Shown piece after piece: positions 1,695 through 29,307 of a DNA stretch of 64,000 nucleotides. The position numbers and the translations under genes are program-made. The DNA comes from a virus. The stretch covers positions 62,001 through 126,000 of IMG/VR virus record IMGVR_UViG_3300050821_007134. One strand, given 5' to 3'. The notes below the pieces were generated by a model. That model made no database searches. It had not been told where the DNA came from and saw nothing but the letters and a program-made list of their open reading frames with translations. Within the stretch, counting starts at the first letter, position 1; each line of letters begins with the position of its first letter.

Positions 1695-1903
1695 ACATTC
1701 AATCGGTATTACAATATGTCAAAAAGACGTATGATCCACAGCGCTACATGAACATGAAGCTTTCCACTTTCCCTACGCTCGTCAAAAGAACTATCTTCTT
1801 TGGCCAACAAGAAGGAAAGACGGACGCACAAATCATTGAGAGTTTAGAAAAACTAGCAAGTAAGTTTGAAAAACAAATTCAAGAAACGGGGTTTCAATTA
1901 TGA
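1691..1903 (+). CDS. Hypothetical helical protein
   Basis: The start at 1691 is chosen because a perfect AGGAGGAAAA lies directly in front; an upstream in-frame start at 1667 would sit before that site. 70 residues, predominantly helical and basic, ending ETGFQL. Overlaps the next start by 4 nt (ATGA). No family recognised. Confidence 0.7.
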   Translation: MNIQSVLQYVKKTYDPQRYMNMKLSTFPTLVKRTIFFGQQEGKTDAQIIESLEKLASKFEKQIQETGFQL

Positions 1904-2121
1904 ACTTGAAAAATTCTATTTTAAATCCACCCAACACTCAGGAAAAGAGTGAAGCCGAGCACAGAGATTTAATAAACACTGCTAACACTGGCGTTCAAGC
2001 TATCAGAACTCTTCAAAAGAAATACGGCGAGCAAACCGTAATTATAGAACAAGATGGGTTCAGGCAGACACTAAGCGATGAAGGCGAAGTAGAAAACATT
2101 TCATTCGAGGCAAAGCGATGA
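1900..2121 (+). CDS. Hypothetical protein
   Basis: 73 residues, hydrophilic, with a helical N-terminal half (EKSEAEHRDLINTANTGVQ). Coupled to both neighbours by 4-nt ATGA overlaps. No family recognised. Confidence 0.65.
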   Translation: MNLKNSILNPPNTQEKSEAEHRDLINTANTGVQAIRTLQKKYGEQTVIIEQDGFRQTLSDEGEVENISFEAKR

Positions 2122-2384
2122 ACTTTTACGATTGGCTCGACACTCTAAATTTGGAACTGGAAATCACAAGATATCCGAATCAAGAAAATAGATTCTGCGC
2201 TTCCATTAAAGAAGCTGAGTTCAAGGACTATCTCGGCGATGGGTTACTTCAAAGTCTTTATGGAGATGGCACCGAACCCAGCACAGCTATAGTTATGTTC
2301 TCTAAAAGAATTGAAGGGAAAGTCTTAGTATTAGATAAACGCGGCAAGGATCGCATCACGTTTACCGTTCCAAAATTCCAATGA
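2118..2384 (+). CDS. Hypothetical protein
   Basis: 88 residues, mixed alpha/beta, with short strands such as KVLVLDKRGKDRITFTV at the C-terminus. ATGA overlaps on both sides place it firmly in the operon. It resembles the many small phage proteins of unknown role that open with NFYDWLD-type helices, but no named family is recognised. Confidence 0.65.
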   Translation: MNFYDWLDTLNLELEITRYPNQENRFCASIKEAEFKDYLGDGLLQSLYGDGTEPSTAIVMFSKRIEGKVLVLDKRGKDRITFTVPKFQ

Positions 2385-2590
2385 AACTGACCCAAAAAAT
2401 GCTTCAACAATGCGTAGAAAGAGCTGCCACTGCCACTGAAAGTGGAAGAGGTCCGGTTTTCTTTGTGAGCCCTGCCGAATACAAAGATCTTAAAGTATTG
2501 GTAGATAAAATATTAGCTATTGAGCCGGAATGGTTGCCCATAGATCCTTGGTCCATTCGATGGAAGGCTCAGCAATTGGGGATTAAATGA
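2381..2590 (+). CDS. Hypothetical protein
   Basis: 69 residues, helical, with no visible motif. ATGA overlap at the start and a 4-nt overlap with the next gene. Function unknown. Confidence 0.65.
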   Translation: MKLTQKMLQQCVERAATATESGRGPVFFVSPAEYKDLKVLVDKILAIEPEWLPIDPWSIRWKAQQLGIK

Positions 2591-2952
2591 AACACAGACT
2601 TGTACATAATGGCCTTGGAGCAAATGCAGAAGTTCTATTGGATAACCAAGGAAGAATTAACAAAGAATTCGCAAATGCAGCTTTAGATTTTCTCAAGCTT
2701 GAGGGATTAGATTTTCAAGTTGGTGAGCATTATGTTTCTGTAGGCATTGAACCTACTTACATGTATCAACCCTTAAAAATAATCACCATCTCCAGAAACA
2801 AAGATGATTCGACCTATGTAACTGGGACTGCGTGGGGACCTTACGGAAGCGGGATTGCCAAGAGAGTTAGAAGGCGCGGGAACTACAAAAAGAAAAGCAA
2901 GTTCACCAAGTTTGTCGATGAATGGCATCCGTTTTTATTCGTAAGTAGATAA
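2587..2952 (+). CDS. Hypothetical protein with basic C-terminus
   Basis: 121 residues; last gene of the first plus-strand operon. The C-terminal third is strongly basic (RVRRRGNYKKKSKFTKF), consistent with nucleic-acid contact, but no domain is recognised. Its stop abuts the stop of the convergent minus-strand gene with no room for a separate terminator. Confidence 0.65.
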   Translation: MKHRLVHNGLGANAEVLLDNQGRINKEFANAALDFLKLEGLDFQVGEHYVSVGIEPTYMYQPLKIITISRNKDDSTYVTGTAWGPYGSGIAKRVRRRGNYKKKSKFTKFVDEWHPFLFVSR

Positions 2953-3312
2953 TTATTGTTTTTTAATGAATTCTGAAATTAGGTTGACTAGCTGGCCGTG
3001 TTGATTTCTTAATTCCTTGCGTAAGTCTTCGATCTTCTCACCCAAGTTAGCTAGAGCCCCATTATAGGTTTCTTTTATGTGGACTAGGTCTTTATCTATT
3101 TCGTGTTTGAAAGCCTGGAATTCGCTCTCCATTAGTTCTATTTTGGCCTGGAACTCTTTACGGACCTGAGAGTCGGCTTCTTTTGCGGCCTGTAGCGTCT
3201 TAGCCGCCTCAGCCTCGCGTTCTGTACGCATCTTGCTGCTGATCTTCCATGGAAGAGCCCAGGCAGCGGCTACGACCAATATTAAGCTTCCTACTTCGAC
3301 TGAAATGTCCAT
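2953..3312 (-). CDS. Membrane-anchored coiled-coil protein (lysis/holin-region candidate)
   Basis: 119 residues. Residues 8-22 (SLILVVAAAWALPW) form a single N-terminal membrane helix, followed by about 95 residues of charged coiled coil. This architecture is common in phage membrane accessory proteins, including some i-spanin-like and holin-associated proteins. It is next to other small membrane proteins on the plus strand, which makes a lysis or envelope role possible. Start at 3312 follows GGAGAATTAA, and a TAATCTTA late-type element lies just upstream. No sequence family recognised. Confidence 0.65.
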   Translation of the reverse strand: MDISVEVGSLILVVAAAWALPWKISSKMRTEREAEAAKTLQAAKEADSQVRKEFQAKIELMESEFQAFKHEIDKDLVHIKETYNGALANLGEKIEDLRKELRNQHGQLVNLISEFIKKQ

Positions 3313-3328
3313 TTAATTCTCCAATAGA

Positions 3329-3336
3329 TAAGATTA
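3329..3336 (-). promoter_or_regulatory. TAATCTTA element (candidate late control element)
   Basis: Exact TAATCTTA on the minus strand, about 17 nt ahead of the start of the minus-strand gene ending at 3312. One of about 14 copies found just upstream of minus-strand genes. No TATA box at the 6- or 9-bp spacing seen at the best copies. Confidence 0.4.
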
Positions 3337-3361
3337 GTTGCTTGATCTTCCTAGGAGTATG

Positions 3362-3370
3362 TGATATATC
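3362..3370 (+). promoter_or_regulatory. Extended -10 promoter candidate for the holin-like operon
   Basis: TG-A-TATATC forms an extended -10. Transcription would start about 7 nt downstream, leaving a short leader with GGAG ahead of the ATG at 3389. Near-identical TGATATATT boxes occur ahead of the prohead protease, the large RNA and the chaperonin. Confidence 0.45.
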
Positions 3371-3388
3371 ATTTAAATAGGAGTTAAG

Positions 3389-3691
3389 ATGAAAGAAAAA
3401 GCCGCTGAAGCGATAAATATCTTATTTGGATTTAGAAAAACCCTATTAGTTCTAATACTTTATATCGTAGGCATTCTATTCAGGCTTAAAGGCCTGATCG
3501 ATGGAGCCCAAATGGTCGATTTATTTAAAGGAATCACCATTGCATTCATGACGGCCAATAGCTTTGAGCACGCGACAACGACTGTCAGATCGTATATGGA
3601 CGCACAAGGTCGTCAGGTAACTGACGCCGAGCCAGGCGTCGCGACGGGCGGCCCCGCCGGAGATCCCCAGGCCGGAAGTACTTCCAAGTAA
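3389..3691 (+). CDS. Small membrane protein, holin candidate
   Basis: 100 residues. Two hydrophobic segments, residues about 18-34 (TLLVLILYIVGILFRL) and 45-57, are followed by a G/P/T-rich soluble tail. Size, topology and location beside two further small membrane proteins match phage holins, but there is no sequence signature that proves it. Preceded by ATAGGAGTTAAG and a TGATATATC promoter. It heads a four-gene plus-strand cluster (3389-4712) placed between two blocks of minus-strand genes. Confidence 0.6.
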   Translation: MKEKAAEAINILFGFRKTLLVLILYIVGILFRLKGLIDGAQMVDLFKGITIAFMTANSFEHATTTVRSYMDAQGRQVTDAEPGVATGGPAGDPQAGSTSK

Positions 3692-3700
3692 GGAGACCTA

Positions 3701-4123
3701 ATGAGCGAAGATCAAAATCCACAAACACCTATTATTCCTAGCGCCACAGTCGATGTTAATGTGGTAGCCCCGACGCCCGCTCCAGTAGCGCCTCCGCCAG
3801 CTCCAGTGGTTCAGGTAGCGGCTAAGAGTTTGCAGGATAGGGTCGAAAGCTGGCTAAAAGACATTTACAGCACTAATAAGATTTTGTTTTATACGATAAT
3901 CCCACTGATGGGGATAATTTTCCTGATAATCAAGTACCATAATTTGATCATTGATCTTTTACTTGGGACTTCAAAAGAGATCCTTAAGCAGGAACAGCAA
4001 AAAGATTTAACTCTTGCTGCGCAAGCCCAGCAACAAGAAGCTGCCGGAGACGCATTAGTTCAGAAAGCTCAGAATGAGCCAAAACAAGAACAACCCGTGC
4101 CCGATGATTGGTTTAAAAAATGA
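3701..4123 (+). CDS. Pro/Ala-rich protein with one membrane helix
   Basis: 140 residues. N-terminal 45 residues are proline- and alanine-rich (PAPVAPPPAPV), then a membrane helix at about residues 64-86 (ILFYTIIPLMGIIFLIIKY), then a Q/E-rich helical tail. Preceded by AAGGAGACCTA. The arrangement (proline-rich arm, single helix, coiled tail) is seen in phage envelope-spanning lysis accessories, so a spanin-like role is possible but unproven. Overlaps the next gene by 4 nt. Confidence 0.6.
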   Translation: MSEDQNPQTPIIPSATVDVNVVAPTPAPVAPPPAPVVQVAAKSLQDRVESWLKDIYSTNKILFYTIIPLMGIIFLIIKYHNLIIDLLLGTSKEILKQEQQKDLTLAAQAQQQEAAGDALVQKAQNEPKQEQPVPDDWFKK

Positions 4124-4302
4124 CACAAAAAGAATGGGAAGACGAGCATTATTTTGATCCAGGAGAAATGAAGTTTCGTGAAATTAAAGCGAAGATCGAA
4201 ATGCAACAGAAGTATCACACTTGGGATATGATCATTAAACTTAGTCTACTAATTACTTTTTTCGCAGGGTTAATAGCTTTTGCAAGCAGGGTTAAAGGAT
4301 AA
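4120..4302 (+). CDS. Tail-anchored small membrane protein
   Basis: 60 residues: a charged N-terminal half and a C-terminal membrane helix (about residues 38-56, MIIKLSLLITFFAGLIAFA). Translation is coupled to the previous gene (ATGA). Probably part of the same lysis or membrane cluster; no family recognised. Confidence 0.6.
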   Translation: MTQKEWEDEHYFDPGEMKFREIKAKIEMQQKYHTWDMIIKLSLLITFFAGLIAFASRVKG

Positions 4303-4304
4303 AT

Positions 4305-4712
4305 ATGAAAATTTTGATGATTTTAATATTGTTGTTTTCGAGCGCTTCGCTTGGCTTAACCGTGACTACTAGTGATGGGACAAGCTGTGACTTCTCCACT
4401 ATCAAGTCTAATGCCGATGGAACCTATACTTATTCTGCTACTCAGAATAGCTGCGTTGGAAAAATCATACAGGACGGTGCCACTAAAGATAAACAGATGG
4501 CCGATCTCTATAAAGCAATCACTCAATTTAAGTTAACGATTGCCACAGACGAACAAAGAATCCAAGCATTGATGGTTTCTCTGTCTGAAGTAAGTGCGCG
4601 AGTGGAAAAATCCGATAATTTACAGAAATCGAATGATAAGTTGGCTTTTGGATTAGGCGTTTTGACTACTTTGGTGGCAGCTGAGACAATGGCGAAGTTA
4701 TCCGGCCACTGA
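4305..4712 (+). CDS. Secreted protein with signal peptide
   Basis: 135 residues. Residues 1-17 (MKILMILILLFSSASLG) form a Sec signal peptide. Two cysteines (about 28 and 50) could form a disulfide in the periplasm. The middle is a coiled coil and the C-terminus is weakly hydrophobic (FGLGVLTTLVAAETM). Could be an outer spanin-type or other periplasmic factor; there is no lipobox. Overlaps the convergent minus-strand gene by 15 nt. Confidence 0.6.
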   Translation: MKILMILILLFSSASLGLTVTTSDGTSCDFSTIKSNADGTYTYSATQNSCVGKIIQDGATKDKQMADLYKAITQFKLTIATDEQRIQALMVSLSEVSARVEKSDNLQKSNDKLAFGLGVLTTLVAAETMAKLSGH

Positions 4713-5219
4713 TTGAAATCCCTTAGAAATCATGAAATTGTAGACATCCTGTGGCGTCATGGCCGATGGGTCTAAGCTGCCTGCGTCTTCCTTATCAATT
4801 TCAATAAGAATATCTGCTACCAATTCAGAGCAAACATAAGAAGATCCGCTATAGAATGGATTGTGAATATTCTTTCCGAAGATCCTCATGAAAAGAACGG
4901 CGCCAAACCCTATGATTTGGCCTACTCCATATGGAGATCCGCATTTATCTATAGCGCCTTGAATGGCAGTTTTCTTTGTTAGCGGTGTAACAGGTACGTT
5001 GAACTCTTCGTAAACTAACTCCACATCATCAAATGAAGTTTGGCCGATGAAGTTTACTTTAAGGCCGCTGGCTTGATAGACTAACCATCGGTTATATTCT
5101 TCAGAGTAGAAACGAATATAAGCGTGGGAAAATTTCGACCTAGTAATTGCCCTAATGATCCAACTGAATGGTTCAAAGAAAGCCTTAGGTCTAGAAAATC
5201 CCACGATTATAGAATCCAT
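4698..5219 (-). CDS. Permuted NlpC/P60-like (YiiX/LRAT-type) papain-fold hydrolase
   Basis: 173 residues. The order of key residues is His first, Cys later: FSHAYI (about residue 31) and YVCSELVADIL (about residue 128). This is the signature of circularly permuted papain-fold enzymes of the NlpC/P60 superfamily, whose members act on peptidoglycan peptides or as acyltransferases or deamidases. A hydrophobic stretch (GQIIGFGAVLFMRIF) lies between them. It closes the fibre-gene cluster on the late strand, so a wall-penetration, lysis or host-modifying role is possible. Which reaction it catalyses cannot be decided here. Confidence 0.65.
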   Translation of the reverse strand: MDSIIVGFSRPKAFFEPFSWIIRAITRSKFSHAYIRFYSEEYNRWLVYQASGLKVNFIGQTSFDDVELVYEEFNVPVTPLTKKTAIQGAIDKCGSPYGVGQIIGFGAVLFMRIFGKNIHNPFYSGSSYVCSELVADILIEIDKEDAGSLDPSAMTPQDVYNFMISKGFQSVAG

Positions 5220-5220
5220 A

Positions 5221-5412
5221 TTATCTCACGAGATTAGTAAATTGAGGAGGAAGATCTCTTAGTTTTTGCTTCATGTGGAAGCGAGTTCCGTCACTCAGGC
5301 CCACCAATAAATTTCCGGTGCCATCGTCTGTAATCCAAACGATTCCGGCTACGTTTACATAAACTACTTTATTTTGATCAATATTATTTAGGGGAATTAA
5401 TACGTTATCCAT
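5221..5412 (-). CDS. Small beta-rich virion-region protein
   Basis: 63 residues. The pattern VVYVNVAGIVWITDDGTGNLLVGLSDGTRF looks like a small beta sheet. It begins right after the fibre-like genes (ATG after AGGAGATGAC) and ends one base before the NlpC-like gene. No family recognised. Confidence 0.6.
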   Translation of the reverse strand: MDNVLIPLNNIDQNKVVYVNVAGIVWITDDGTGNLLVGLSDGTRFHMKQKLRDLPPQFTNLVR

Positions 5413-5421
5413 GTCATCTCC

Positions 5422-5934
5422 TTAAGCTGCTTGGAACAAGCTGTTGAGGGTACAAACTAAAGTTCCAATAGCACTCAAATCATCCTGAATTGTAATAGTG
5501 ATGGAATCTACATCAGCTAAAACCATTGAGCTATCGTTGAATGTCATGGTTCCAGTGAAAGCATCAACAGAGGCGCCGAACCCAACTGCACTTCCAAGAG
5601 TTCCTTGAGCACTACTACCGAAGTTGTTCTGAGGGAACATCGTGACTAAATCTGCATTGTCTTTTATTACGCATATTACGGATTTAACTCCTCCTATGGT
5701 AACGGCAATTTCAATTCCATTGGGCAAAGCAGACAACTTACCAAAATTACTGAATGAATCTTGGCCAGTGCTTTCGATGAGAATGGTTAAAGAAAGTAAT
5801 TCTGCGCTGTTAACGCCATTTTCATCTGAACCTGGGGAATAAGAAAACACCTGAGGTACTTGAGATCCATCTAAGTTCATGGATTTACTTTGTTTGCCAC
5901 TTAATACTGGAGCGATTAAAGGTACTACGGCCAT
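5422..5934 (-). CDS. Virion-region beta-sandwich protein
   Basis: 170 residues, few charges, rich in S, T, V, I and G, with an all-beta pattern typical of tail or fibre accessory proteins. Start preceded by AAGGAGTCCAAT. It is the next-to-last in a row of five similarly composed proteins (5422-10095), so it is probably a structural component. The 63-nt gap upstream holds a 7-bp hairpin and a TAATCTTA element. Confidence 0.6.
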   Translation of the reverse strand: MAVVPLIAPVLSGKQSKSMNLDGSQVPQVFSYSPGSDENGVNSAELLSLTILIESTGQDSFSNFGKLSALPNGIEIAVTIGGVKSVICVIKDNADLVTMFPQNNFGSSAQGTLGSAVGFGASVDAFTGTMTFNDSSMVLADVDSITITIQDDLSAIGTLVCTLNSLFQAA

Positions 5935-5958
5935 ATTGGACTCCTTGTCTTTGTTTTA

Positions 5959-5977
5959 GAACGGAGTCATTCCGTTC
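5959..5977 (-). promoter_or_regulatory. Leader hairpin upstream of the 5422-5934 gene
   Basis: Perfect 7-bp stem GAACGGA / TCCGTTC with a 5-nt loop. No T-run follows on either strand, so it is not a classic terminator. It lies between a TAATCTTA element and the ribosome site, and may be an RNA stabiliser, processing signal or operator. Confidence 0.4.
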
Positions 5978-5984
5978 AGGGTCA

Positions 5985-5992
5985 TAAGATTA
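5985..5992 (-). promoter_or_regulatory. TAATCTTA element
   Basis: Exact TAATCTTA on the minus strand in the gap between two structural genes, just upstream of the leader hairpin at 5959-5977. Confidence 0.4.
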
Positions 5993-5997
5993 ATATT

Positions 5998-6417
5998 CTA
6001 AACTAGGACCTTGTGAAATTCGTAGTTCATTGCCACATTTACGTTCGAAGTGCCTGTAGAATTGTAAATTAATCGAACATAAAGACCTTGATATATCTTT
6101 GCTGGGTATTGGCATCTAAGTTCTAACTGAAATTCGCTACTGTCCATGATGTACCAATCCGTGACAAACTCGTTAAGGACGGTACCTGCGGGAGCTAAGA
6201 TGCCATCTTTATCGACGACTTGAAAGGTGATATTATCTCCCCAGTTCGCGCCTTTGCAAAGCAGTGCTCCTCCACTTATCAGCCTATCTTCAGGCAGAAC
6301 AAAATCAAAATTAGTTGAAGCTCCGGCTATTGCCACTCCTATGATTCCTTGGCCTTTAAAATTAAGACCGTCGGCTCTAAAATCTGCTTCATTCAAGGGC
6401 GCATAATTGGTAGGCAT
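5998..6417 (-). CDS. Virion-region structural protein
   Basis: 139 residues, all-beta composition. The motif LISGGALLCKGANWGDNITFQVVD is of the type seen in phage fibre or receptor-binding accessory proteins. Its ATG overlaps the stop of the upstream gene (TAATG), so the two are coupled. No named family. Confidence 0.6.
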   Translation of the reverse strand: MPTNYAPLNEADFRADGLNFKGQGIIGVAIAGASTNFDFVLPEDRLISGGALLCKGANWGDNITFQVVDKDGILAPAGTVLNEFVTDWYIMDSSEFQLELRCQYPAKIYQGLYVRLIYNSTGTSNVNVAMNYEFHKVLV

Positions 6418-7610
6418 TATCTTTCACTCCAAACAATTTCTCCAGAAATACTTTGTCCCACGACTGCGGCTACATCTAATCGGATGCAGAAGCCTTCTCC
6501 TGGCGCTAATTTAACCGCTATAGCTTCCCTTATGTATTGAGCAACTGGACCGTTATCTGTTTCTGGACATATGATCGTTGCTATGGGAGTTCCAAATGAA
6601 ACTCCAGTCGTAGTTAATCCGGTATCTAAAAATCTTACATCAGTTACTTGTGTCGCGGCGGACGAAGAGTCTTGAGCTACGACTGTGATGGCTGTTCCTC
6701 CAGTGGGAGTCGCAGAAGTATATCTAACTAAATCATATTTTAAAGAAGTTCTTGTAAGTGGCGTCGCGCCATCAAATGCCATACTTAGAAATATTCTTTC
6801 AAGATAAATGGTCTTCGTAGAACCGGAAGCATTTCTCATAGACCAAACAGTTGCATTGGCCGCAGTGGCCGCTGTTTGTCGAATGTTTACCGGTGCTGAA
6901 TAATAAGCTGCCGCAGGAGCTACAATATTTACGTCAAGAGATTGTTTAGATGTTTCGGCAGTGGATGTAATGCCATTCCCAGCCGTGTCTTGATTTCTTA
7001 CCTGTGCGCTAAAAGCAGCAGCGCTTGAACTGAATACTTGAATTGCATTGGTAGCTAGACTCGAATTATATTTTATGGTAGCCGTTCCAGAAGACCAGGC
7101 AGTTGCGACTAATTGAACTTGTGTGTAAGCTCCGCAAGGAACTGTGACCATGAAGTTAGTGGTTGTTGCATTGGTCCAGTTACCAGACGATGGAACGTAT
7201 CCTTGGATACTATCCCATGTTAATCCGCCATCAAGACTTCCCTGAAGACTTAAAGTTCCAGACCAAGTACCGGTGATCTTGAAGTTAACTGTTGCATTTT
7301 TTGCGACCGTTGCAATTACTGCTCCATTGAGTGCATTTACGGTACCGCTACCGGATTTATCGAGGTTACTGAAATCATGTGCTGCATTGTATAGAAAAAC
7401 CACGGCATTAGAGCCTAGATATGTGCTGATACCATCGCTTAAATTTAGATTTCCGGCTGTAATGTCAACTAACACCTGGGGATCTTGTTGGAATTGAACA
7501 AGCACAGTATTTGGAATCGTTAAGGTCGCGCCTGCGCCAATGGACACATTTTCGCCATTGTTATTGTACGCTAGGATGCCTCCGGTTGTATTAATAGCCT
7601 GTACTATCAT
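6417..7610 (-). CDS. Fibre-like virion protein with GTW-type beta domain
   Basis: 397 residues from the ATG at 7610, chosen because AGAGGA lies just upstream; a farther in-frame ATG at 7631 lies inside the preceding gene. The central part contains GTWSGTLSLQGSLDGGLTW, a beta-sandwich signature shared with the adjacent 438-aa protein and common in phage fibre and baseplate proteins. The C-terminus ends in a GEIVWSER strand that parallels the CTVEWTEE end of its neighbour, so the two look paralogous. Likely a tail or head fibre component; receptor binding is an inference. Confidence 0.65.
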   Translation of the reverse strand: MIVQAINTTGGILAYNNNGENVSIGAGATLTIPNTVLVQFQQDPQVLVDITAGNLNLSDGISTYLGSNAVVFLYNAAHDFSNLDKSGSGTVNALNGAVIATVAKNATVNFKITGTWSGTLSLQGSLDGGLTWDSIQGYVPSSGNWTNATTTNFMVTVPCGAYTQVQLVATAWSSGTATIKYNSSLATNAIQVFSSSAAAFSAQVRNQDTAGNGITSTAETSKQSLDVNIVAPAAAYYSAPVNIRQTAATAANATVWSMRNASGSTKTIYLERIFLSMAFDGATPLTRTSLKYDLVRYTSATPTGGTAITVVAQDSSSAATQVTDVRFLDTGLTTTGVSFGTPIATIICPETDNGPVAQYIREAIAVKLAPGEGFCIRLDVAAVVGQSISGEIVWSER

Positions 7611-7611
7611 G

Positions 7612-8928
7612 TTATTCCTCTGTCCATTCAACAGTACATAGCCAGCTTCCGCCTGTTACGGTTACGCCGCCTAGATTTATGGCCAATACTTGGGAAGTTC
7701 CTCTTAAAACTATAGATTGTGCAGGACTATTACCAAAATAAATATCGGGTATATTTTCTGAACTTACGTTACCCGCTACTGCCGGGACTTGAATAACTTT
7801 CTTAAAAGATAAAATTGTTCCAACAGTAGCTCCTAATGATGTTGGATTTGCTGTATATTGTAGTACTGTCGCAGTGGCAGCCAAATTATTAGAATCATGA
7901 GGAACTGCTGTGACTGCTGCCGATGTTCCACCCGAATTGGCAGCAGATCTTTTTATGAAAAAGAAACTCACGTATCCCGGCGTAGTTTGTGTTCCAGTGA
8001 TCGAGATCCTAGTTATTCGAATGGTTTTAGTGGCACTTCCTGTGATGGTGAAAATATCTGTAGCTGTAGCGGCAGAAGAAAAAGATGCACTGCTCGCAGC
8101 TCTATAGGATTGTTTAGACCCGTCTACTGGCGCATTTTGAACTACGGCACCGATATAAACCGTATTAACATTATTGGTGATCGTAAGCTTTACTACAGCC
8201 GTACCGGTCATTGCCGAAATGGCGCGTATTCTAAAATTTGTAAATCCGGCCATATTCGCTTCACCATTAAAATTAGCGGTGAAAGTGGAGGCCGTATAAA
8301 TAGTGCCGGTTTGATGAATAGGACGAACATACCAAGTAGTTCCTCCATCCATGCTTACTTCTGATTGTAAACTTCCAGTCCACGTTCCTGATACTTGGAC
8401 GACGACGGCTTCATCTGAATTAGTAGTTAATACAGCCGTTGAATTTGCGGTTGGAGTACCAGTTATTATTGGTTGTTGATTAAACCCTAATGCAGTGGTC
8501 GATACGATATCTTGAGTTGTTATATTGAAAGCGCCAAAGGATTCGTCTTGAGTGGTTACTATTAATTCTGCGTTGCTATTTAATTGTAGGTCCCCTCTTT
8601 GGCCGTTAGAAAGAGTTGGTAAGGTCGTATTAAAAACGCCACCAACTTTTACGGGACTACCCGAGTCAGCAGAACCAGAAGCTACATTGCCGACCATTTG
8701 TATATTGCCGCTAGCATCTACAGCGATACCAATTAAATTTCCAGCATTTTTTCCAGCTATGTATGAGGCGTTTGAAGGAACGGCAGAACCAGTTGCGCTA
8801 GTGGCATAATCCTTAACCAGTAAATTTCCGTTAGCGTCTGCGCCAACGTAGTTTACAGTTGTGCCACCAGAGTCTTGCCCTGTTATTTTAACTTCTTGTG
8901 CTTGATCGATATAGGGAATGTCTGCCAT
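7612..8928 (-). CDS. Fibre-like virion protein, paralogue of its neighbour
   Basis: 438 residues, start after GGGAGGCCTA. The N-terminal part carries FNTTLPTLSNGQRGDLQL, a motif shared with the 384-aa protein at 8941-10095 and known from many phage virion proteins. It is followed by a GTWTGSLQSEVSMDGGTTW beta domain shared with the 397-aa protein downstream. Low charge and S/T/A/G/V richness fit an extended structural protein. Probably a tail fibre or head fibre. Confidence 0.65.
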   Translation of the reverse strand: MADIPYIDQAQEVKITGQDSGGTTVNYVGADANGNLLVKDYATSATGSAVPSNASYIAGKNAGNLIGIAVDASGNIQMVGNVASGSADSGSPVKVGGVFNTTLPTLSNGQRGDLQLNSNAELIVTTQDESFGAFNITTQDIVSTTALGFNQQPIITGTPTANSTAVLTTNSDEAVVVQVSGTWTGSLQSEVSMDGGTTWYVRPIHQTGTIYTASTFTANFNGEANMAGFTNFRIRAISAMTGTAVVKLTITNNVNTVYIGAVVQNAPVDGSKQSYRAASSASFSSAATATDIFTITGSATKTIRITRISITGTQTTPGYVSFFFIKRSAANSGGTSAAVTAVPHDSNNLAATATVLQYTANPTSLGATVGTILSFKKVIQVPAVAGNVSSENIPDIYFGNSPAQSIVLRGTSQVLAINLGGVTVTGGSWLCTVEWTEE

Positions 8929-8940
8929 TAGGCCTCCCTA

Positions 8941-10095
8941 TTATTGTTCGTTGCCGCTAATTGTCGAGTAAACGTCTTGAGACGCCTTATCGAGGTTCGT
9001 GCGGATGATTTGGATCTTTGCACCAGCAATTTGAGTTTTGTCTGAAGGAACTGGAATTGGAATGTTTGGTGTAGAAGTAGAGTTAAATCCTACCCAGAAA
9101 CTATTAAAAATACCTGAACCAGCTGCGGTTTCGTATTGGACTTCTACTTTTAATTTTCCAGACCCAGAAGCCCAGAATTGTTTGGTGAAAAAAGTTTTTC
9201 CAGCAGTGACAGTGTAAACATGAGTGCTTGTGGCATTTGCGGCCAATGCAGATACGGTATTATAATTATCTACAGGAGTACCAGAGGCAACTGCTTCAGA
9301 AACAAATATTGGATTTGTAGGACTGTTAGCTGCTCCACCAGAAGTGATTGAGATTGGCCATGCATTAGCTGCGGTATTTGGTGCTCCCTGATTAGCTACT
9401 ACTCTTAATGTCTGAGCACCCGTGGCACCAGCATTGAAGTCAGCCAGTCCAGTAGCATTTGCGATTTCAGCGGCTACTCTTAATGTTTGAGCACCGATGG
9501 CGCCTACATTAAAATCAGCGGCTCCGGTGGCATTACCAATTTGAGAAGCTGTGCGTAATGTGTTAGCTCCAACGGTTCCATAATTTGTGTCTAGGGTAGT
9601 TGGAAAATTGGAAATTGTAACTCTTAATGTTTGAGCGGTTGCAGAACCAGCACCAAAATCAGCAGCACCAGTCGCGTTACCAATTTGAGCAGCAGCTCTG
9701 AGTGTTTGAGCCCCAACAGTTCCATAGTTAAAATCGGCAGCGCCAGTGGCGTTACCGATTTGAGCGGCAGTTCTTAAAGTATTGGCCCCAACAACGCCAT
9801 AGTTCGTATCGTTTACAACGCTAGGAGTAACCAGTAATCTACCACGATTGTCAACTTGAAGGGCAGCTTGCTGTCCAGTAGTAAGTGTAGGAAGAGTGGT
9901 ATTAAACTGACCGCCGATAAGAGCAGAAAAGGCAGCTGCGGACCCAGGGCTTACGGGGCCGTCAACAACATCTCTTAAAGAACCATTCGCATCAACTGCG
10001 GCTTTCTGTGTAGGTGTAGTTCCGTCTACTAAAAAGACCGCTACATCGCCGGGGTTCTCTGTTCTTACTGGTAATGAACTATTAAAATCTGACAT
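8941..10095 (-). CDS. Fibre-like virion protein with tandem 25-residue repeats
   Basis: 384 residues. Residues about 62-90 carry the FNTTLPTLTTGQQAALQV motif. Residues about 97-235 are five to six imperfect repeats of about 25 residues built on the pattern NYGTVGAxTLRxAxQIGNAT, a likely repetitive beta (solenoid or triple-helix) shaft. The C-terminal 120 residues are a distinct beta domain. Architecture (attachment, repetitive shaft, tip) is that of a fibre. Start preceded by AAAGGAATAG. Confidence 0.65.
   Translation of the reverse strand: MSDFNSSLPVRTENPGDVAVFLVDGTTPTQKAAVDANGSLRDVVDGPVSPGSAAAFSALIGGQFNTTLPTLTTGQQAALQVDNRGRLLVTPSVVNDTNYGVVGANTLRTAAQIGNATGAADFNYGTVGAQTLRAAAQIGNATGAADFGAGSATAQTLRVTISNFPTTLDTNYGTVGANTLRTASQIGNATGAADFNVGAIGAQTLRVAAEIANATGLADFNAGATGAQTLRVVANQGAPNTAANAWPISITSGGAANSPTNPIFVSEAVASGTPVDNYNTVSALAANATSTHVYTVTAGKTFFTKQFWASGSGKLKVEVQYETAAGSGIFNSFWVGFNSTSTPNIPIPVPSDKTQIAGAKIQIIRTNLDKASQDVYSTISGNEQ
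9391..9807 (-). repeat. Coding tandem repeats in the fibre-like gene
   Basis: Five to six degenerate copies of a roughly 75-nt unit encoding NYGTVGAxTLRxAxQIGNAT-type repeats. Copies differ at the DNA level, so the array is old or held by selection on protein rather than a recent slippage product. Confidence 0.7.
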
Positions 10096-11411: not shown

Positions 11412-11864
11412 TTAAGGGAGGCTGGTTGCTCCTGAACTTTCATCCTGGTCACCGGCTTCATCACTTAACCTGATGCCTGTGTAGTTGATTGTAACACGGC
11501 TGGTGGCGCGAGCATTGTGGTTACCGTTATAAGAGGTCGGGATACACCCGATTGCAGTCATAATGGTTGCACCAGTTTGTCGGTCAACAACGGCCAATGT
11601 AACGTTCTCTAAAGTCAAGAGATCTTGCAATTTTGGAAATTTTGGAAGAACCATAGGTCCTTGGCCAACTACCCTAAAAGCACCGCATGTAAGCGTAACT
11701 GCGTCATAAGACGTAGGAGTGATCTCATCTGGGCTATAACGGCCCAAAAGATGAATTGGTTCATTTCCAATATTGACGTTATAAGAGACTGTTTCAAAGA
11801 TACCAACGAGTGTATCGTCTACGTATACTTTTGTTCGGGCTCCAACTAAAACTTTTGATGGCAT
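11412..11864 (-). CDS. Tail tube protein
   Basis: 150 residues. Opens PSKVLVGARTKVYVDDTLVGIFETVSYN and has the size and all-beta composition of myovirus tail tube proteins, which stack as hexamers inside the sheath. It directly follows the sheath gene, the standard sheath-then-tube order, and has a strong AAGGAGAATTTAC ribosome site, as expected for an abundant virion protein. The family assignment rests on size, order and pattern rather than a unique motif. Confidence 0.7.
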   Translation of the reverse strand: MPSKVLVGARTKVYVDDTLVGIFETVSYNVNIGNEPIHLLGRYSPDEITPTSYDAVTLTCGAFRVVGQGPMVLPKFPKLQDLLTLENVTLAVVDRQTGATIMTAIGCIPTSYNGNHNARATSRVTINYTGIRLSDEAGDQDESSGATSLP

Positions 11865-11883: not shown

Positions 11884-11891
11884 AAAGATTA
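11884..11891 (-). promoter_or_regulatory. TAATCTTT element ahead of the tail tube gene
   Basis: Minus-strand TAATCTTT next to the sheath stop codon, about 20 nt ahead of the tail tube start. Variant of the late element; may allow extra tube mRNA. Confidence 0.35.
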
Positions 11892-14663
11892 AGCGGCGCT
11901 CTGTACTTGCGATACGTTAATGGTAATCGGTACGAAGTAGATAGCGGTTGCAAGCTTGATTTCGACTGCAACGTCCATTTCAGGACCATTGACGCTGACT
12001 TTGGGATTTTTGAACCCGAGAGGAGCATCTGTGCTGCCTGCGATTAACTTTAATCGTTTGTATCCATCCATTTTTTGAGCTAAGAAGCTCAAAGCGGTAG
12101 CGGCGTCGACATCGGCCAAGCTCTTACCAACAAAGGATGCTTGGAAGCTTGCGGCGAGATCGAGGGCCAAAATATCCGAAGCGTACACGGCTTGGATGCT
12201 GTTATAAACGAAATTGGCGTCAAAGGCATAAGTCGTTTGGTCACTAACCCAACGAACTCCAGCGGTATCTTTGGTCCAAAATAATAGACCAGCATCGAGT
12301 GCATCTTCAACATCACCAGGGCTACCCGAGTCAAATCCTGAAGGATCAAGGTAACTGATAACGTTTGCGAATTTGTTAACGATGGCTTTATAGAAACCGC
12401 CCGTTTGCATACCGGCAGCAACAACTGCTTGGTACCAAGGGAGGAAGCTTGTGATAACGCCTTGCGAGTTAACTTGCGAAGGCCTTTGGAAAGCCAAAGA
12501 ACAACGGTACTGAGCAATCCCTTGAGATTTTTGTTTCGTCTGAGCATAAGTTCCCCAGAAAGAAAGGATTGCGATACGATTCTTTTTAAGCTTCGGTGTG
12601 CTGAATTGGATACAATGAGCCTTAGCAGCTGCATGGATTGCATCAATGGTGTAGGTCGAAGATGAATCGGTTAATCCGTCAGCGATATCAGCGCTTGCAT
12701 CTCTTGAGAAGAGAGGAACGATAATGTTAACATTCAATCCAGCCAATGCGTTGATTGCAGCGATAACTTGAGCAGCAGAAGTTCCACCTTTGGTTCCACC
12801 AGATAAGAAAATTGGAGCTGCATTTGGATTGGGTAATCCAGAAGAAGCTTGAGGTGCGAAATTCAATGCGCGAGAAGTACTCATACCTTGTTCGAAAGAG
12901 AACAGAGCATCTTTAATTCTTCCAGGCTGTTCACCAGCTCCGCTTGAAGCGATACCGGCTGCGGTAACTGCATCTAAAGCAGAAGGAGGTAATTGCTGAG
13001 CAGAAGGAGAAGCTGAAGCTGAATATCCAGATTGAGAATTGATAAAAGCAGCAATGTCGGCAACCGTTCTGTATTGGCTAAGAGCGATACTTAAGTTAGC
13101 ACCTGATCCGCCACTAACAGTAGTCGTCAACATTTGACTTACGGGATTAATTGTTAAAGTTGCGGTCGTACCTTGGTAACCAACGTTTAAGGCAATTTGA
13201 GTTGCAACGTCGATTGTTTCGCTTAAGTTAATGTCGGCGCGGTTGATTTGAACTTCAACAGAAGCCTCTTGAGCGGCAACATTTAAACTGTCAGAAAGAC
13301 CTAAAGCGGCTAAATCTCCAGGAGTAGAGTCGAACAATTCAAAACTTCTTGCATCTCCCCTTCGATAAGCGGTAGCATCTATGGCCATGGTAAGAGCAAT
13401 ACTATTTGGTGCAGCGCCAGGTGATGCAGAGATTCCAGAGGGAAGTAACAAATTGAGTTCAGTTATTAACTGAGCCTGATTTGAGTGGTTAGCTCCGTTG
13501 ATTACTCCAGGAGGGAAATTTGTGATTGAAGTTCCAGGACTCACACCAACGTTACCATTGATAATAGTACCGCTAGATGCGCTACCAGTTACGGCTGAAG
13601 CACCTAAGAGACCAAACGTCCCAGCGTAATTTAATAGAGGAGCTTGCTGTGCGTTGACGACAGTGGGTGCGCTTAATGTGACGGCTCCAGTAAGAGCAAT
13701 TAAACTGCCGTTTACAACGGTTCCTAATGTGTCAGTGATTGATGCTTGAGCGATAACGTTACCTTGGAAAGTACCAGCGAATGAAGAATCAAGAGTTGCA
13801 GAACTTCCGACGAGCCAATAAACGTTTTTGGCTAAAGCGCCACCAGTAAAGTTAATAACAGGAGTACCGCTTGAACCAGTCACTAAAGTACTTGCAGTTT
13901 TGATTACGAATACGTCAGTTGAAGAACCGCTAAAAGTAAGAGGTCCGCCTGCATCTAAGGAAGCGGCGCCCGTGCTATAATAACCAGCGGTTAATGTTTG
14001 ACCATCGAGAACAGCGGGAATTGAAACATATCCGCCATGACCAGATAAACTTGTGTAAGCGGCCTGAGCAGCTGATTGAGCTGAAGCGGCTTCGCTTGGA
14101 CTAACTGGACCAGAAGAGCTGCTACTAAGAGTGATAACATTGGCTGCTCCACCGTTTAATCGAAGTGTAAAAGAAGCGCCGTCTAAAGCTGCACCGAATG
14201 CAGGGATAGTTCCACCGGAAAGGGTAGGAGGAGCTTCGGTAGCGATCGAAGTAACTTGATATCTGTATTGGTTTCCAGGAATGCCGAAATTTTGATCAGA
14301 AAAAAGTCCATAGTTAGTGTCAACAGCGGCAGAAGCCTTTGCACTCGTATTTGTTTTTACGATGTAGATTAAATTTGCAGACCCAGTGATATCAGCATCA
14401 GCTGAAGGAGCAGATAATGCTCTCATAGCATCAACGATTGGACCGCTAAGGTATTGTTGTTGAACTTTATCCAATTGATCTGGAGTAAATGAATTGCTGC
14501 TCAAAGGATTAAGATCACTGAAAACATCTCCACCATCGGCTTCACCGATTATGACTACGTTACCAGAAGATCCGATACCAACAGGTTGGCTTTGAACAAC
14601 GATGTTAGGATACGCTCCAGGGATATTGGTATTAATGAAACTTGTTGCTAGTCTTTGAGACAT
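11889..14663 (-). CDS. Contractile tail sheath protein with an inserted, circularly permuted DUF3494 domain
   Basis: 924 residues, longer than typical sheaths (roughly 400-700). The N-terminus (TSFINTNIPGAYPNIVVQSQ) and C-terminal third (hydrolase-free alpha/beta region with ALNFAPQ, SFWGTYAQTKQ and GFKNPKVSVNGPE) fit the contractile sheath family. Residues about 187-400 are an insertion with the conserved elements of DUF3494 ice-binding beta-solenoids in swapped order: first DGQTLTAGYY, FVIKTASTLVTG, NVYWLVGSSATL and FQGNVIAQASIT, then FGLLGASAVTG, INGNVGVSPGTS and NFPPGVINGANH. In ordinary DUF3494 proteins the second block is N-terminal. The insertion would decorate the outer tail surface. 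Strong AAGGAGAACGA ribosome site. Confidence 0.85.
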   Translation of the reverse strand: MSQRLATSFINTNIPGAYPNIVVQSQPVGIGSSGNVVIIGEADGGDVFSDLNPLSSNSFTPDQLDKVQQQYLSGPIVDAMRALSAPSADADITGSANLIYIVKTNTSAKASAAVDTNYGLFSDQNFGIPGNQYRYQVTSIATEAPPTLSGGTIPAFGAALDGASFTLRLNGGAANVITLSSSSSGPVSPSEAASAQSAAQAAYTSLSGHGGYVSIPAVLDGQTLTAGYYSTGAASLDAGGPLTFSGSSTDVFVIKTASTLVTGSSGTPVINFTGGALAKNVYWLVGSSATLDSSFAGTFQGNVIAQASITDTLGTVVNGSLIALTGAVTLSAPTVVNAQQAPLLNYAGTFGLLGASAVTGSASSGTIINGNVGVSPGTSITNFPPGVINGANHSNQAQLITELNLLLPSGISASPGAAPNSIALTMAIDATAYRRGDARSFELFDSTPGDLAALGLSDSLNVAAQEASVEVQINRADINLSETIDVATQIALNVGYQGTTATLTINPVSQMLTTTVSGGSGANLSIALSQYRTVADIAAFINSQSGYSASASPSAQQLPPSALDAVTAAGIASSGAGEQPGRIKDALFSFEQGMSTSRALNFAPQASSGLPNPNAAPIFLSGGTKGGTSAAQVIAAINALAGLNVNIIVPLFSRDASADIADGLTDSSSTYTIDAIHAAAKAHCIQFSTPKLKKNRIAILSFWGTYAQTKQKSQGIAQYRCSLAFQRPSQVNSQGVITSFLPWYQAVVAAGMQTGGFYKAIVNKFANVISYLDPSGFDSGSPGDVEDALDAGLLFWTKDTAGVRWVSDQTTYAFDANFVYNSIQAVYASDILALDLAASFQASFVGKSLADVDAATALSFLAQKMDGYKRLKLIAGSTDAPLGFKNPKVSVNGPEMDVAVEIKLATAIYFVPITINVSQVQSAA

Positions 14664-28338: not shown

Positions 28339-29307
28339 TTAGGGGCCAGTGTTGCCGCTGATTAATGTAACTGCGGTCTGAGCATAGAGAGATCCGTGAA
28401 CCGTACATGTCGCTTGAACTGCGATTGATGTTTGATCCAAGATAACGCCTCTGAATATTGAACTTGTTTTCAGAGTGGTTGCGCCTGCAACTGCCCATGT
28501 AACGTTTTGTGGCAAGATTCCACCAGTCAAATGAATTTGAACACCAGTTTCTAAATTGAGAGTACCGGCAATTTGAAGGATGATTGAATCTGCGGGTCCG
28601 CCATTGATAGTGATATCACCAGTGACATCGACTGCTGTGGACCATTTGTAAATCCCAGGAGTTAAAGTTTGACCGTTAAGAGTACCTGCGCCTAAGTTAA
28701 CAACCGGAGCTGGGCTTGTTTGTGCTTGAGCAAAAGTGTAAGCAGCTTGCATTGCACTAACAGCTGCCGTTAAGTTTGCAGGAGTTGGAGCTGCGTTATC
28801 GGAAGCATCCACGTTTCCAGAAACTTCAACAGCACTTCCATGTGGGCCAGCGAGATTTGGAGTGTATGTGAAACCAGTGATTGCAGTATGTGAAATTGGA
28901 CTTACTGCAATGTTACCTGTAACTGTTGCGCCGGATGCATTGCTGATTCCAGATTCAGCTAACATTCTGTAATTTGAAGCAGAACCTAAGTTTACCAAAG
29001 CTGGGCCACGATGAACAGGAATTGCGCAATGAGCATTGATGCTTGCAACGACGGCTTCCATAACATCATCACTTGCGAACCCATCTTCCATTACTGCTTG
29101 GTCATGCAGAGAAAGAGATCTTTGACATAACATAGCAGCTTGAATATTTTGGGCTACGGTTTTGCTGCCCATGGCGTCTGTCAATCTAATGAAAGTTTTT
29201 GGTGAGAGAATTGCGCCAGCATCGATTGCTGCACAAAATTCTTTACCGGCTTTTACGTCTGCCAGTGCGACAATGACGTTGGGAATAAATTTACTCGGGA
29301 ATGCCAT
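28339..29307 (-). CDS. Capsid-locus protein with a DUF3494 (ice-binding-fold) domain
   Basis: 322 residues. Residues 1-100 are a helical domain of unknown family. Residues about 103-320 have DUF3494 elements in the usual order: LVNLGSASNYRMLAESGIS, TGNIAVSPISHTAITGF, AAPTPANLTAAVSAMQAAY, LNGQTLTPGIYKW, SIILQIAGTLNL, NVTWAVAGATTL, IFRGVILDQTSI and VHGSLYAQTAVTL. The fold is a right-handed beta-solenoid first known from ice-binding proteins, but many members bind other surfaces. Strong AAGGAGATTTT ribosome site and own late-type promoter next to the capsid gene suggest an abundant decoration or fibre protein. No signal peptide. Confidence 0.8.
   Translation of the reverse strand: MAFPSKFIPNVIVALADVKAGKEFCAAIDAGAILSPKTFIRLTDAMGSKTVAQNIQAAMLCQRSLSLHDQAVMEDGFASDDVMEAVVASINAHCAIPVHRGPALVNLGSASNYRMLAESGISNASGATVTGNIAVSPISHTAITGFTYTPNLAGPHGSAVEVSGNVDASDNAAPTPANLTAAVSAMQAAYTFAQAQTSPAPVVNLGAGTLNGQTLTPGIYKWSTAVDVTGDITINGGPADSIILQIAGTLNLETGVQIHLTGGILPQNVTWAVAGATTLKTSSIFRGVILDQTSIAVQATCTVHGSLYAQTAVTLISGNTGP

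Follow-up and report, generated by a model that had tools for sequence, protein, structure and literature searches.

Can the parts of an ice-binding fold be reordered in nature, and what would such a reordered domain do on the tail of a phage? Both questions are raised by a 924-aa protein encoded in a viral contig (IMG/VR record IMGVR_UViG_3300050821_007134), of which a stretch of 64,000 nucleotides, hereafter the window, was analysed. A sequence-only reading of the window had proposed that residues 187-400 of this protein, a tail sheath, hold a DUF3494 domain in which the block that is normally C-terminal precedes the normally N-terminal one. We examined this proposal using profile searches, structure prediction and comparison with related phages.

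A permuted DUF3494 domain in a tail sheath

The gene lies on the minus strand at positions 11889..14663, and profile and predicted structure both establish that its product is the tail sheath of a contractile phage. The conserved C-terminal sheath core is present at residues 486-922 (11898..13208, minus strand), where it matches phrog_279 with an E-value of 6e-24, and the predicted structure resembles the sheath chains of phage 812 in a Foldseek search (E about 1e-15). The adjacent 150-aa protein (11412..11864, minus strand; phrog_985 virion structural protein, E 6.5e-6) is likely to be the tail tube, a role inferred from its place beside the sheath. Elsewhere in the window, positions 8941-10095 (minus strand) encode a protein of 384 aa in which 'GTVGAQTLRTAAQIGNATGAADFN' is imperfectly repeated and which has no match in Pfam or PHROG.

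A Pfam scan of the sheath reports Ice_binding (PF11999, DUF3494) at an E-value of 2.3e-31, split over two stretches. Scanned alone, residues 186-337 match positions 60-207 of the PF11999 profile (E 2.2e-29) and residues 338-403 match positions 2-51 (E 1.7e-4), so that the later part of the profile comes first. A phmmer search against the PDB agrees independently, residues 25-150 of the domain aligning to 104-227 of 6eio and residues 140-211 to 12-81 of the same protein. The C-terminal block thus precedes the N-terminal block, and the sheath contains a circularly permuted DUF3494; the same searches rule out that the two blocks are parts of an unpermuted domain. Both profile halves are matched significantly, but the normal chain order of the family (N-block, helix, C-block; coils 1-6-5-4-3-2) is not met, and the domain is therefore filed as a permuted variant rather than as a standard DUF3494 member.

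A quirk of the profile cannot account for the swap, since the phage's own separate DUF3494 (28357..28965, minus strand) matches the full profile in normal order (positions 1-204, E 4.1e-54), as do its PDB matches. This canonical copy belongs to a 322-aa protein (ORF 28339-29307, minus strand) that is dissimilar to the sheath copy and closest to ice-binding proteins of Candidatus Cryosericum (9li0, E 1e-56); related proteins are encoded by at least two further phage contigs with the insert (G002 and G004). Chance or an assembly artefact can likewise be ruled out, as the same sheath architecture is shared by 13 contigs, which come from at least 10 metagenome ids.

The whole insert spans sheath residues about 183-392 (13488..14117), as judged from the block absent in empty-site relatives, the model and the fold matches. 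We set this boundary because sheaths lacking the insert continue from H393 onward, resuming with H-x-N-I-A-x-L-I-x-E-L-N; H393 itself is already sheath. The normally C-terminal block (residues 189-341; 13641..14099) comprises the long helix (189-207) and coils beta2-beta6, assigned from the match to profile positions 60-207 and from the secondary structure of the model. A 7-residue linker, corresponding to the gap between the two block HMM matches, leads from coil beta6 to coil beta1 (residues 342-348; 13620..13640). The normally N-terminal block (residues 349-392; 13488..13619), supported by profile positions 2-51 and by 6eio 12-81, holds coil beta1 and a cap (GLLGASAVTG ... NGNVGVSPGTSITNFPPG). 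All these features are on the minus strand. A Flagellin-IN motif was considered as an interrupted host domain and is not claimed: the only match lay elsewhere, at residues 516-554, and below the cut-off, and none was found at the insertion site in empty sheaths.

The 220-aa domain was modelled with AlphaFold from nine aligned relatives, the row of phage Mx1 being left out of the input. The model (mean pLDDT 86.7, pTM 0.87) shows one long helix followed by consecutive triplets of short strands, and in a model of the full sheath the corresponding block, residues about 185-386, has a pLDDT mostly of 80-92. In a Foldseek search of the PDB, each of the 31 top matches is a DUF3494 ice-binding protein (probability 1.00, mostly rmsd 2-3 A). 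Most cover only about 150 columns, because a sequence-order aligner cannot follow the permuted remainder. The exception is the two-domain DUF3494 protein 5uyt, aligned over 224-229 columns at an rmsd of about 17 A; the aligner may have matched the C-block in the first copy and then moved on to the N-block in the second, although this is our own reading and the aligned ranges were not displayed. The domain is predicted to be a six-coil beta-solenoid braced by a long helix, without the support of a permutation-aware superposition.

In crystal structures of canonical DUF3494 proteins the six coils are stacked in the order beta1-6-5-4-3-2 with the long helix along the solenoid (PMC7966756; PMC7277481), and coil beta1 adjoins beta6, head-to-tail (PMC7277481). 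The chain of the sheath domain runs through the helix, beta2, 3, 4, 5 and 6, the 7-residue linker and beta1. We infer that this order makes the discontinuous canonical solenoid continuous, and that the new ends, before the helix and after beta1 and its cap, lie adjacent in space because they were consecutive in the ancestor.

HMM, phmmer, structure and comparison upheld the sequence-only reading on the nature of the domain, on its swapped order and on its place within the sheath. Its mapping of residues 187-400 to positions 13464-14105 was correct, the limits given above being better. It would have been refuted by a model without a beta-solenoid, or by blocks fitting an unpermuted domain, and neither outcome was obtained. 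Of the checks it had suggested, separate alignment of the blocks to DUF3494 confirmed the swapped order, and a search for the same order in other phage sheaths is described next.

Filled, empty and differently filled sheath sites

Sheath relatives were drawn from IMG/VR. The 13 viral contigs with the permuted domain in the sheath are the window, L005, L006, L007, L025, L027, L037, L038, L129/L135, L136, L137, L138 and L139, the sheaths of the last two being truncated at the 5' end. In about 15 relatives (L008-L015, L017-L021 and L026, with sheaths of about 720 aa, plus L133) the site is cleanly empty, with a junction such as 'VTLSNVAAD' joined directly to 'HNNIANLIIELN'. The L022 sheath (5986-8349) carries in the same place a different insert of about 65 aa ('TSANATAGATYTNNGQTFTV...'); similar sequence is also present in L029, L031 and L130, and this small insert seems to be another mobile domain. 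The homologous 953-aa sheath of Myxococcus phage Mx1 (OR576727), a 170-kb phage, has extra sequence in the insert region that is not DUF3494.

In L027, the permuted domain sits on the far side of the local beta-hairpin, 20-30 residues off the usual site, and the nearest sheath relative (L133, backbone identity 61%) has an empty site. Insert identity between L027 and the window reaches 55%, against only 34% for the sheath backbone. The neighbouring loop, together with an insert closer than the backbone, leads us to conclude that the permuted unit moves. For L037 and L129, identity to the window is 68-71% in the insert and 52-58% in the backbone. On the tree of sheath backbones, one gain of the insert was not rejected (p 0.06-0.13), but the different loop of L027 argues for a separate insertion there.

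The near-identical sheath genes of L037 and L038/L134 form a mosaic, with 1 difference in nt 235-1364 (insert included) and 41 in nt 1365-2214, which we attribute to recent recombination. A domain-precise exchange was rejected, as the near-identical block runs into the insert flanks, consistent with ordinary homologous recombination. The frame of the insert is open, and in diverged pairs nonsynonymous changes are fewer than synonymous ones, a comparison that is qualitative only, synonymous change being near saturation.

Six threonines (Thr 259, 262, 290, 310, 312 and 359, sheath numbering) are invariant in eight sheath domains. The same positions are 63-94% Thr in other phage copies versus 2-56% in 87 bacterial domains, a contrast of which shared ancestry of the phage copies can explain a part. 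From the strand pattern rather than from coordinates, we assign these residues to one face of consecutive coils. This is probably the b-face, again an inference and not a measurement; the b-face is the ice-binding face in characterised DUF3494 members (PMC7966756).

Permuted and canonical copies beyond the sheath

The sheath-type permutation recurs at residues 1653-1868 of a baseplate-J-like protein (phrog_6 baseplate wedge, PF04865) in L028 and in a 353-aa protein in L030. The J-like protein of the window phage carries a canonical DUF3494, at a position different from that in L028, and canonical copies are also inserted in other proteins of these phages. This bears on the earlier suggestion that a permuted domain suits loops by virtue of its adjacent termini, which holds only in part: the canonical ends are adjacent too (PMC7277481), and since canonical copies have been inserted as well, adjacency alone does not explain the permuted form. 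In the 171-kb G000 record, the baseplate-J gene leaves one end (L034, G000:C1:155000-171073) and its N-terminal part lies at the other (L035, 1-9000). Because the gene is split over both ends, the record probably represents a complete circular genome opened within that gene.

A census with a two-block HMM covered 128 loci, some of which yielded one block only. All permuted copies were in phage contigs, and none was detected by this census in 72 bacterial genome loci. One permuted copy has a different cut. In L130, residues about 1040-1290 of a 2289-aa ORF (1831-8697, plus strand) form a DUF3494 cut after the helix, which becomes C-terminal, and the same protein has a canonical copy. The AU test rejected a common origin for the full set of permuted copies with L130 among them (p 0.0003), and L130 represents a second, independent permutation of the fold. 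For the sheath-type cut, as seen in the sheaths, L028 and L030, one origin was not rejected (p 0.30), yet it remains unproven because the canonical L029 groups with L028 and L030. At the scale of whole records, G014 and G015, 170-177 kb relatives with an empty sheath site, have no PF11999 domain anywhere, and G000 and G010 have several each; DUF3494 use could be all-or-several within this phage group.

Putative role of the module and relation to known systems

Sequence and structure prediction together show that a non-core loop of the sheath is occupied by a DUF3494 beta-solenoid whose chain has been opened ahead of the long helix and closed again by a short linker. The module is mobile, being present or cleanly absent at the site, found in a neighbouring loop of a distant sheath lineage, and shared with other phage proteins. 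The reading we prefer, with a probability of only about 0.48, is that this module is a repeated decoration of the tail surface whose Thr ladder serves weak multivalent attachment. A continuous solenoid with entry and exit side by side would plug into a loop and leave the sheath core undisturbed. With one outward solenoid on each of many sheath subunits, the tail would be coated, an inference made without a lattice model. The flat Thr-rich face may then provide a weak multivalent grip on extended surfaces, such as polysaccharides of the cell surface or matrix, particles, or ordered water. By analogy with what has been proposed for Ig-like sheath decorations, attachment would aid adsorption or retention near hosts.

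Outward display is inferred from the place of the insert outside the C-terminal core and from a survey of sheath models that places add-on domains at a distance from the tube and suggests that they contribute to adhesion (PMC9230969). The module is dispensable, many close relatives being without it, and for this reason we regard its role as accessory; its presence in several different virion proteins disfavours a role purely in the sheath lattice. Two claims of the sequence-only reading, solenoids coating the whole tail and adhesion to cells, particles, ice or glycans, remain inferences, the former resting on the sheath being a repeated subunit and the latter lacking any binding data.

Of the alternatives to surface decoration, the next in rank is that adjacent solenoids pack on the sheath as a cement that steadies the tail in its extended or contracted state, for instance against freeze-thaw or drying, without external binding. 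This remains possible: tail stabilisation has been proposed for sheath add-on domains (PMC9230969), and the insert stays in frame across diverged sheaths. However, the permuted unit also occurs in baseplate-J-like and 353-aa proteins, where there is no sheath lattice, and close relatives manage without it. True ice binding, in which the tail would adsorb ice or block recrystallisation and the virion be protected, or concentrated with its hosts in liquid veins, seems unlikely in the absence of an ice assay. Every characterised close structure is an ice-binding protein, and the conserved Thr ladder lies on the probable ice-binding face, but PF11999 also takes in putative substrate binders (PMC12337378), and Thr-rich faces may equally bind sugars or other ordered surfaces.

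Still less credible is a neutral or selfish module, tolerated by a loop that accepts mobile folded domains without benefit. The presence/absence pattern, the different small insert at the L022 site and the spread of insertions over several sites and proteins would fit; on the other hand, amino-acid replacements are kept low in comparison with silent changes, the surface threonines are invariant, and some 200 extra residues per sheath subunit should be costly to the phage. Last comes the idea that the permutation is only apparent, coil beta1 of one sheath subunit completing the solenoid of its neighbour. Sheath subunits do repeat in a lattice, and sequence cannot by itself exclude swapping; nevertheless, the prediction for a single chain is one compact domain (pTM 0.87), the unit occurs in proteins with other arrangements, and canonical structures already have beta6 next to beta1, which together all but exclude it.

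Surface decoration, our preferred reading, admits a bolder version that we hold as a possibility: the natural DUF3494 permutant, with its once discontinuous solenoid now continuous, is a plug-in module that spreads from loop to loop in the structural proteins of phages (sheath, baseplate and others) and makes the contractile tail a multivalent ice- or surface-binding rod.

The domain shares its fold, and homology over both blocks, with DUF3494/PF11999 ice-binding proteins (6eio, 7bwx AnpIBP, 6bg8 SfIBP), but it is permuted, lies inside a loop of another protein, and binds ice only by conjecture. It resembles the Ig-like and other extra domains surveyed in 112 sheath models (PMC9230969) in being a non-core insert, dispensable and variable among relatives. 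Those domains are mainly Ig-like, whereas the window insert is a circularly permuted beta-solenoid and not an Ig-like sandwich; neither ice nor permutation comes up in the survey. Cultured phages in INPHARED (tblastn) and the PHROGs yielded no similar domain, and a BFVD search returned only Hyperionvirus. The open-access literature that we searched contains no description of DUF3494 in a phage tail or of a circularly permuted ice-binding fold. Such absence is not proof, but as far as this literature shows, the window holds the first natural circular permutant of DUF3494, which is also the first DUF3494 known from a phage sheath.

The unusual coil order of this fold can therefore be undone in nature, and a question about folding can now be put to the test: does the permuted form match the normal copy of the same phage in stability and ice activity? 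The finding also matters for annotation. An earlier study describes PF11999 genes in viral contigs as auxiliary genes for cryoprotection (PMC11515562); the copies described here are likewise virus-encoded, but several are embedded in structural proteins of the virion (sheath, baseplate) and not in free-standing proteins that protect the host. Finally, a sheath loop that is empty, filled by this module or otherwise filled shows how phage tails gain surface functions.
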